From positions 1 through 64,000 of the forward strand of contig JAQXIP010000015.1 of NCBI GenBank assembly GCA_029007845.1: a stretch of 64,000 bases of DNA, given 5' to 3'. Within the stretch, counting starts at the first letter, position 1. Each line of letters starts with the position of its first letter. The notes below the pieces were generated by a model. It searched no databases, had not been told where the DNA came from, and saw only the letters and a list, made by a program, of their open reading frames with translations. Origin of the DNA: Clostridiales bacterium (GTDB lineage Bacteria; Bacillota; Clostridia; Lachnospirales; Lachnospiraceae). Position numbers and translations under genes: made by a program. Below, in pieces: positions 2,511 to 31,473 of the stretch.

Positions 2511-2543
2511 TTGACTTTTTTGAAAAAATGGTGGTATTATAAT
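2511..2543 (+). promoter_or_regulatory. Putative promoter for the MATE leader
   Basis: TTGACT (2511-2516), 18-nt spacer, TATTAT (2535-2540) / TATAAT (2538-2543). Confidence 0.55.
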
Positions 2544-2563
2544 TAATAATCGTGTGGCTTTAA

Positions 2564-2596
2564 GGCGTAAATCCAGATTTGGGTTTGCGCCTTTTT
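2564..2596 (+). terminator. Intrinsic terminator in the MATE 5' leader (candidate attenuator/riboswitch expression platform)
   Basis: GGCGTAAATCC-agattt-GGGTTTGCGCC (11-bp stem including G-T pairs) followed by TTTTT; lies between a putative promoter and the MATE start. Confidence 0.8.
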
Positions 2597-2675
2597 GCAG
2601 GTTATGGCAGCTTTCCTCATCTCAAAAAAAGACTCCACTTTAGATCAAAAGAAAACTGGAGGTAAAACAACAATT

Positions 2676-4061
2676 ATGAAAGAACAAGAAACAATGAATA
2701 AGATGGGAACGATGCCGGTTGGCAGGCTGATGTTATTAATGGGGATTCCGATGATTTTATCTATGGTATTACAAGCGGTATATAACATAGTTGACAGCGC
2801 ATTTGTTTCTAATATGAAAGAAAATGGAGAGGCAGCGTTGAATGCGCTGACACTGGCGTTTCCGGTTCAGATGCTGATGGTTGCCATTGGAATTGGAACC
2901 GGGGTTGGAACGAATGCGCTTTTGGCCAAAAGCCTGGGACAGAACAATCAGAAAAAAGCAAGCCAGGCGGCTGGAAATGCTATCTTTCTGGCGGCAGTCA
3001 TTTACTTTGTATTCCTTTTGTTTGGCCTGTTTGGAACGAGGGGGTATATATCATCCCAGACGTCAAATCCATTGGTTTTGGAGATGGCATCTGATTATCT
3101 GAAAATATGCTGTGTTGCTTCGTTTGGAATTGTATTTTTCTCTATATTTGAAAAACTGCTGCAGGCAACGGGGCGGTCATTGTTTTCCACCATTGCACAG
3201 GTGGCAGGAGCAGTTACCAATATTATTTTAGACCCTGTTCTTATATATGGTCTGCTGGGACTTCCTGAATGTGGAGTGGCAGGAGCTGCATATGCCACGG
3301 TAATCGGACAGATCGTTTCCTTTTTACTGGCGCTGTTATTTCATCTGAAATTTGACAAAGAAATAAAGAATAAACTAATTTATATGAAGCCTTCTGGAAA
3401 AATCATCCGGGAAATCTATTCTATTGGGCTTCCGGCAATTATTGCTCAGGCACTTATGTCTGTTATGACCTACGGACTCAATGTGATCTTTGGCAAGATT
3501 GATGAATCGGTGGTTACTGCATATGGTCTGTTCTATAAGATTCAGCAGTTTATTCTTTTTGCTGCATTTGGACTCAGGGATGCCATTACCCCGATTGTAT
3601 CGTTTAACTATGGAATGAGAAGCAAACGAAGAATTCTGGATGGTATTAAATATGGTATGCTTTATACGTTGGTGATCATGGTAGCTGGACTTTTACTACT
3701 GGAGATATTTGCAGAACCGTTTGCTGCTTTATTTGGATTGTCAGGTACAACCCAAAAACTTTGCACCAGCGCCATGAGAATTATTTCAATCAGTTTTGTT
3801 TTTGCAGGGGCTAATATTGCATTTCAGGGAATCTTCCAGGCGCTGGACAGTGGATTGGAATCGCTTGTGGTATCAGTGTGCAGGCAGTTGATTTTTGTGC
3901 TTCCTGTGGCATGGTTTTTCTCACTTTTTGCAAGACAGTCCATGGATCATATGTGGATGGTATGGATGACGTTTCCGATTGCAGAGTTTGTTTCTGCACT
4001 GATTGCTGCCTGCCTTATGAGCAAAATTAATCAACGGGTTATTAGTGGACTGGAGGGATAA
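2676..4061 (+). CDS. MATE family efflux transporter, MepA-like
   Basis: [36 protein letters not shown]...; RBS ggaggt upstream of ATG 2676. Confidence 0.93.
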
Positions 4062-4063
4062 AA

Positions 4064-4660
4064 ATGGAGAAAAAAATCATTACAATCAGCCGGGAATTTG
4101 GAAGCGGTGGCAGATACATCGGTGAGCAGGTTGCAAAGAAACTTGGCATGGCGTACTACGATAAAGATATCATAAAAAAAGTGGCAGAAGAATCTGGTCT
4201 TTCAAAGGAATTTATCGAGAAAAAAGGGGAATACTCTCCGGCAGGAAAAGGTTTTGCATATGCGTTTGTGGGGCGTGACCAGACAGGTGCCTCTTTGGAG
4301 GATTATCTATATTCTCTGCAAAGAAAAATTATTATTGATATTGCAAAAAAGGAATCCTGTGTCATTGTAGGAAGATGCGCAGACTATATTTTAAAAGATT
4401 GCCAGGACTGCATTGATGTATTTATTCATGGAAACCAGGAAGAAAAGTCAGAACGGATTCAGAAATTATTTGAGAAGACAGAAAAAGAAGCTGGAAAGAT
4501 GATGAATCAGATGGACAAAAAGCGTAGCATTCATTACAAATATTATACCGATCAGAACTGGGGGGATGCAAGAAATTACACGCTGTCTCTAAACAGCAGC
4601 GTGCTGGGATATGACAAATGTATTCATATTCTAGCTGATCTGGCAGAAGGACCAATGTAG
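4064..4660 (+). CDS. Cytidylate kinase-like family protein
   Basis: MEKKIITISREFGSGGRYIGEQVAKKLGMAYYDKDIIKK: P-loop and family N-terminus. Confidence 0.9.
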   Translation: MEKKIITISREFGSGGRYIGEQVAKKLGMAYYDKDIIKKVAEESGLSKEFIEKKGEYSPAGKGFAYAFVGRDQTGASLEDYLYSLQRKIIIDIAKKESCVIVGRCADYILKDCQDCIDVFIHGNQEEKSERIQKLFEKTEKEAGKMMNQMDKKRSIHYKYYTDQNWGDARNYTLSLNSSVLGYDKCIHILADLAEGPM

Positions 4661-4699
4661 CGTAAGATTTTAGGATGAATGAAAAGGAAGGGAAAAGCA

Positions 4700-5221
4700 A
4701 TGTTTCAGGTAAATGATATCGTAGTGTATGGGAAACATGGTGTATGTAAAGTGACGGATGTGGGAACGTTGTCCATGTCCATGGTGGATAAGGATGAGCT
4801 TTATTATACACTGCGGCCTGTTTATCAAAAAGATGCGGTGATCTATGCCCCTATTGAGAACAATAAAACGGTTATGAGATCTGTGATATCAAAACAGGAA
4901 GCGAAAAAACTCATTAATGAGATTGATGACATAGAAACGGTGCGGACTGGTAATGAACAGGAACGGGAGGCGCAGTACCGGGTCGCTCTGCGCAACTGTG
5001 ACTGCAGGGAACTGGTTAAAATCATTAAAACATTGTATCTAAAAAATAAATCCAGAACCAAAAGTGGAAAAAAAGCAATGGCAGTGGATGAACGGTATTT
5101 CCGTCTGGCGGAAAACCAACTGAATGAAGAACTGGCATATGTTCTGGGGATGAACAAAGAAGAGGTTACGGATTACATTGCAAACTGCGTGTCAGAGAAA
5201 AAGGTTACCATCCATACATAA
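4700..5221 (+). CDS. CarD family transcriptional regulator
   Basis: MFQVNDIVVYGKHGVCKVTDVG...YYTLRPVY: CarD/TRCF RNAP-interaction domain; ATG 4700 preceded by aggaaggg. Confidence 0.9.
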   Translation: MFQVNDIVVYGKHGVCKVTDVGTLSMSMVDKDELYYTLRPVYQKDAVIYAPIENNKTVMRSVISKQEAKKLINEIDDIETVRTGNEQEREAQYRVALRNCDCRELVKIIKTLYLKNKSRTKSGKKAMAVDERYFRLAENQLNEELAYVLGMNKEEVTDYIANCVSEKKVTIHT

Positions 5222-31277: not shown

Positions 31278-31291
31278 CTAGAAAATAATAT

Positions 31292-31473
31292 GATGCCAGG
31301 GTCAAAAGGTCATACGTTTCGTGCTTGCATGAAAAAGTATGACATTGTGCCCCGTAAAACATGAGAAAGTAGCCCAAACAGGGCGGATTTCGAATGTTTT
31401 AGAATTGCGAGAGCACGAAGTGCGTAGCAATTCGCAGGCATCATGGGGGCAAAAGACCTTTTGACCCCAACAC
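31292..31473. repeat. Long palindromic intergenic repeat, copy 2, enlarged by internal nested palindromes
   Basis: GATGCCAGGGTCAAAAGGTCATACGTTTCGTGCTTGCATGAAAAAGTATGACATTGTGCCCC matches copy 1; outer GGGTCAAAAGGTC (31299) pairs with GACCTTTTGACCC (31455-31467); interior holds AAAACAT...ATGTTTT and GAATTGC...GCAATTC hairpins. Confidence 0.8.

Follow-up and report, generated by a model that had tools for sequence, protein, structure and literature searches.

Among the closest described systems is the guanidine-IV riboswitch (mepA motif, GGAM-1), which occurs in the leaders of MATE and other exporter genes and is predicted to be an ON switch (PMC7736828, PMC12186494); its 5' element pairs with the loop of an intrinsic terminator (PMC7736828, PMC12186494, PMC11611296). 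In the published description, a P1 hairpin carries the first loop, the one CG dimer has no conserved A beside it, and residues G66 and U67 are conserved at 97% (PMC7736828). A close variant of this riboswitch, the orphan Gd4v motif, is enriched in the gut and has MATE genes among its targets; it shows a guanidine-IV-like two-hairpin structure and is found mostly with transaminase genes (PMC9788692). The HMP-PP riboswitch (thiS motif) is described as a terminator-embedded aptamer (PMC6478431); it belongs to thiamin-metabolism genes, and the RNA analyzed here is likened to it by description. The azaaromatic riboswitch (yjdF RNA, RF01764), a xenobiotic-responsive RNA, forms a separate Rfam family without a match to our element. 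Terminator overlap is also found in the RAT antiterminator sites of BglG/LicT, which are short RNA hairpins overlapping a terminator. The proteins that bind these sites are regulated by the PTS and in most cases encoded next to them, whereas our element has no constant regulator gene.

We analyzed a 64,000-nt stretch of a Lachnospiraceae genome (hereafter, the window), in which a preliminary description had proposed a terminator-containing leader of a MATE gene as a candidate guanidine-IV or other riboswitch. This leader carries a short, aptamer-like element (Table 1) which we consider likely, from comparative sequence evidence, to represent an unreported orphan-riboswitch class that would act as an anti-termination ON switch in response to a small molecule. 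The element matched our covariance model R2 with 38.1 bits, the only match in this genome.

Table 1. Leader features and downstream genes predicted in the window
Feature	Positions	Strand	Basis
Promoter: −35 TTGACT (2511-2516), 18-nt spacer, −10 TATTAT (2535-2540)	2511-2540	+	Promoter scan; −10 spacing kept across leaders
Aptamer-like element, AUCGUGUGGC-UUUAAG-GCGUAAAUCCAGAU, from predicted +1	2549-2578	+	Match to model R2; consensus of 213 elements
Outer helix P1, 5' strand (A2549, U2550, C2551), pairing with 2576-2578	2549-2551	+	Covariation
Internal loop, 5' side, GNGUN	2552-2556	+	Conservation in 213 elements
Inner helix GC/GC: 2557-2558 with 2565-2566, variable apical loop 2559-2564	2557-2566	+	Enrichment of extension pair
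Internal loop, 3' side, GUAARUCCR	2567-2575	+	Nearly invariant in 213 elements
Outer helix P1, 3' strand (G2576, A2577, U2578), within terminator hairpin loop	2576-2578	+	Covariation
Intrinsic terminator: stem 2562-2575/2580-2593, loop 2576-2579, U tract 2592-2596	2562-2596	+	Folding; leader survey
Second conserved block, GGUUAUGGCAGCUUUCC, 3' of terminator	2600-2616	+	About 45 leaders, shortly before the ribosome-binding site
Hairpin CUCCA/UGGAG (2633-2637 with 2657-2661), predicted to cover Shine-Dalgarno GGAGG (2658-2662)	2633-2662	+	Fold
MATE efflux transporter (PF01554; TIGR00797)	2676-4061	+	Domain/profile matches
Cytidylate kinase-like protein (PF13189), probably same operon	4064-4660	+	Domain match
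CarD-like protein (PF02559), possibly same operon	4679-5221	+	Domain match

The promoter claimed earlier is present and resembles a σ70 promoter. A promoter scan on its own expects 1.5 such sites by chance per 500 bp, and the window site is supported comparatively by the conserved distance between the −10 hexamer and the element. Among 153 related leaders with a −10-like hexamer (four or more of six positions matching), this hexamer was located 6-8 nt before the purine that starts the element in 128, and the first nucleotide of the element was a purine in about 99% of the leaders with a recognizable −10. This position and the purine suggest that the element begins at the predicted 5' end of the transcript, and the window transcript is predicted to start at about A2549, 8 nt after TATTAT. 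The terminator hairpin of the window had a folding energy of −20.6 kcal/mol (z = −4.6), equaled by none of 200 shuffled sequences; it was absent from the output of a simple terminator scan. The preliminary description had placed an 11-bp stem with a T5 tract about 20 nt downstream of the transcription start. The terminator and its T5 tract were borne out, but the stem has 14 bp; it starts about 13 nt after the predicted +1. Downstream of the terminator, about 79 nt lead to the ATG at 2676, in agreement with the anticipated leader of about 80 nt.

From about 260 leaders, we collected 213 distinct elements with the consensus R x C-GNGUN-GC-N4-9-GC-GUAARUCCR-G x' U; some species may stand in more than one of the leader collections. 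Both G residues of GNGUN were present in 213/213 elements and the U in 199/213, with the N positions variable, and the collecting pattern itself demanded both G and U/C at these positions. The apical linker ranged from 4 to 30 nt. The x and x' positions were left free during collection, the pattern and models presupposing the other conserved letters. They were base-paired in 98.6% of the 213 elements, compared to 42.6 ± 3.1% of shuffles, none of 2000 of which was as high, and ran through all four Watson-Crick pairs (UA 94, AU 48, GC 33, CG 21) in addition to GU (12) and UG (2). The neighboring C:G pair was changed to U:A in 12 elements. In alignment A3, the covariation score was 0.437, compared to 0.209 in shuffled alignments and at most 0.088 when the partners were slid. 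The x:x' pair changed its type at least 32 times along a tree built from 156 MATE proteins, and independent pair contrasts on supported branches had the same direction in 7/7 and 5/5 cases (sign test, p = 0.016 and 0.06, respectively). The extension pair of the inner helix was found in 57% of elements, compared to 37% in shuffles. The GC/GC helix is itself nearly invariant and therefore silent on covariation, and support for this 2-bp helix is weak.

One strand of the terminator is formed by part of the element. The two folds are consequently incompatible, as was the case in 256 of 263 leaders. The terminator overlapped the 3' half of the element in 166 of the 263 leaders and the 5' half in 90, while none was found in seven, in which no U tract was recognized; the pattern scan of named genomes favored leaders of the 3'-half type. 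The terminator type switched at least 11 times on the MATE protein tree. In the leaders of [Eubacterium] eligens ATCC 27750 and Roseburia sp. 831b, for example, both the 5' part and GCGUAAAUCCAGU were kept, and the terminators paired with the 5' part of the element instead of GUAAAUCC. The conserved letters thus persist while the terminator switches its partner half, which argues that they are not merely building blocks of the terminator. In these two leaders the 3' strand of the terminator is outside of the element, and a pseudoknot between the 5' end and the terminator loop was for this reason dropped in favor of the nested hairpin.

A DNA search of relatives showed conservation before MATE genes in other genera, extending from the predicted start of transcription to the end of the terminator; both element and terminator were kept in related genomes. 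Model R1, built from ten such leaders, had matches in 79/397 genomes of the same family and in 48/391 genomes class-wide; model R2 had matches in 115/397 genomes of the same family and in 15/399 of a phylum sample. A pattern scan of named genomes detected at least 119 stretches, and records of Roseburia, Blautia, Lacrimispora, Clostridium, Intestinibacter, Ruminococcus, Agathobaculum and Papillibacter were among the matches listed. A few pattern matches (e.g., the Lacrimispora group and a Yersinia record) shared the hairpin alone, without the 5' part; nine Lacrimispora-group loci had a GTAAATCCAGGTGTGGGTTTGCGC hairpin in another context, lacking the 5' half. Searches of phage and plasmid DNA with the bare element gave no match. 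Overall, the element precedes predicted exporters in many anaerobes of the gut and rumen. Two or more copies were present in 22 loci; most of these copies were arranged in tandem, as a rule with AAC/GUU first, followed by AGU or AGC/GCU. In three loci, a conserved small ORF (MKRVKAACICQTLHF...) was located between the two tandem copies, and in another locus such an ORF adjoined one copy.

With regard to downstream genes, MATE was the next gene for 204 of the 259 leaders with enough downstream sequence (about 79%). Other genes following the element included several MFS exporters, CarD-like proteins and DUF2798 membrane proteins. The window MATE protein did not reach the cut-off of the MepA equivalog model. 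Element-linked MATE proteins formed two groups relative to it, 111 with at least 40% identity and 88 below 40% (nearly all 20-30%), and both groups used both terminator types. The element was present before three of the four closest MATE orthologs and absent before more distant Clostridium MATE paralogs (about 25-37% identity); two such paralogs (~37% identity) had a different, mutually similar CACTTTTTACTGTTTCTTGGTACCAAAACAGTATTAAGTGGGG-like terminator leader. MATE was followed by a cytidylate kinase-like gene in 43/117 related loci, and a CarD-like gene occurred in 3/117 MATE loci. One leader preceded a MATE gene seemingly without its N-terminal half, followed by a cytidylate kinase-like gene. 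In another locus (L264), a CarD-like gene was preceded by a copy of the element, with an azaaromatic (yjdF) riboswitch (positions 1287-1384, − strand) close by.

Conserved sequence also continues beyond the terminator. In about 45 leaders, including that of the window (2600-2662), GGUURUGGCAGCUUUCC was followed by AAAAG(A/U)CUCC and then by the Shine-Dalgarno sequence GGAGG. A search for covarying structure within the second block gave no convincing result. Together with the hairpin over the ribosome-binding site, this block may constitute a second, translational layer of control.

The conditional read-through into the pump gene proposed in the preliminary description is well supported by these data: a promoter-proximal terminator coupled to a conserved riboswitch-like RNA points to conditional read-through of the MepA-type MATE gene. 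Moreover, the element combines a conserved, covarying structure with a consistent location before several unrelated gene families, as expected of a candidate orphan riboswitch. In the proposed mechanism, the MATE mRNA would open with a roughly 30-nt aptamer-like RNA folded as a short hairpin, in which the three nucleotides at the transcript 5' end would build a 3-bp outer helix, followed by a large asymmetric conserved internal loop (GNGUN/GUAARUCCR) and a short inner helix. In the absence of a signal, the terminator would form and transcription would halt after about 45-50 nt. This signal is most probably a small molecule exported by the pump, or its proxy, and would bind the internal loop and stabilize the element; since element and terminator cannot coexist, such stabilization would permit read-through, and the pump would be made. 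A small molecule is suggested by the large conserved loop, the several unrelated exporter families and the absence of a constant regulator gene. A broader proposal, to which we give a little better than an even chance, is that these RNAs form a widespread new class of 5'-end aptamers, single or in tandem and with two terminator designs, which would couple a toxic or foreign molecule of the gut and rumen to the production of MATE and MFS exporters. A literature search by exact sequence and topic found no prior report; an unnamed entry for the element may exist in supplementary motif lists (e.g., the 3161 candidates of PMC8040213). Leader-peptide attenuation was rejected, because the element is located at the predicted +1 and nearly all copies lack a start codon. 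The variable linker and the terminator swapping argue against a DNA operator.

Assignment to guanidine-IV, as suggested in the preliminary description, or to Gd4v or a P1-less form, with guanidine or a related compound as the signal, appears improbable. The design, the predicted ON logic and the main gene class, MATE, are the same (PMC7736828, PMC12186494). The pairing of a 5' element with the loop of the intrinsic terminator is also present, here via xC/Gx', whose geometry resembles A29-C30/G71-U72 of C. botulinum (PMC11611296), with the terminator overlapping the element. However, the conserved letters differ from the published description, the x:x' pair is free to vary, and either half of the element can supply a terminator strand. 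No counterpart of the P1 hairpin with the first pseudoknot loop was found in the element, which leaves no room for it by starting at the predicted transcript 5' end. At the positions presumed equivalent to G66 and U67, G was present in 200/213 elements, whereas the second position was variable (A/U/C/G in 95/61/33/24 of 213). Guanidine-IV has a single CG dimer and few conserved G residues, whereas our element carries two such dimers and a large number of G and A residues that are nearly invariant. The two hairpins of Gd4v and its extra hairpin on the terminator had no equivalent in our single short element. A search for guanidine-IV examples through SMR genes and Clostridium MATE genes returned guanidine-I or nothing; several of the scanned SMR (sugE-like) loci carried guanidine-I and the others had no known match. 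An Rfam search had been recommended as a check, and no family reached threshold at this site in Rfam 15, a release not confirmed to contain a guanidine-IV model. Searches run with both gathering and permissive cut-offs gave no more than sub-threshold matches at the element, judged to be due to chance, such as ALIL with 24.6 bits against a threshold of 50, which was not repeated in six relatives. The leader appears to work like guanidine-IV, but these comparisons do not support its membership in that class. Elsewhere in the window, a Clostridiales-1 RNA (RF01699, 120.6 bits) was detected at 31291-31443 on the + strand, and positions 288-314 contain a perfect CIRCE (HrcA) operator, TTAGCACTC-N9-GAGTGCTAA, upstream of htpG.

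The main rival to a small-molecule riboswitch is a protein-responsive antiterminator similar to the BglG/LicT RAT, in which a regulatory protein would bind the internal loop and block the terminator. Architecture alone cannot tell protein from ligand, as a conserved RNA-protein site looks similar and known protein antiterminators likewise place a short conserved hairpin over a terminator. Nevertheless, no regulator gene consistently accompanied the element, considering the frequencies of cytidylate kinase-like and CarD-like genes given above, and its occurrence in several families before unrelated transporter types suits a ligand better, so we regard protein control as unlikely while allowing it an appreciable chance. 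An ordinary constitutive terminator or a small RNA, kept by descent with the gene, is very improbable. It would draw on the general abundance of intrinsic terminators, on the stability of the stem and on a possible trans-acting role of the roughly 50-nt RNA left by termination, but neither the persistence of the conserved letters through switches of the terminator strand, nor the compensatory changes outside the terminator stem, nor the unrelated downstream genes fit this explanation. The outer helix is made of about +1 to +3, and initiation at different nucleotides could alter it and hence termination, a form of start-site or nucleotide-pool control which would leave the large conserved internal loop unexplained and whose probability we consider close to negligible.

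The substrates and inducers of MATE pumps in Clostridia cannot be read from the pump sequence. If the element is a riboswitch, its ligand would name a natural substrate or inducer of these pumps. With the element present in 115 of the 397 sampled genomes of the same family, the signal is likely to be widespread in the communities of gut and rumen. Being short, located at the transcript end, found in tandem and served by two interchangeable terminators, the element may also offer a compact model for the evolution of aptamers and expression platforms.
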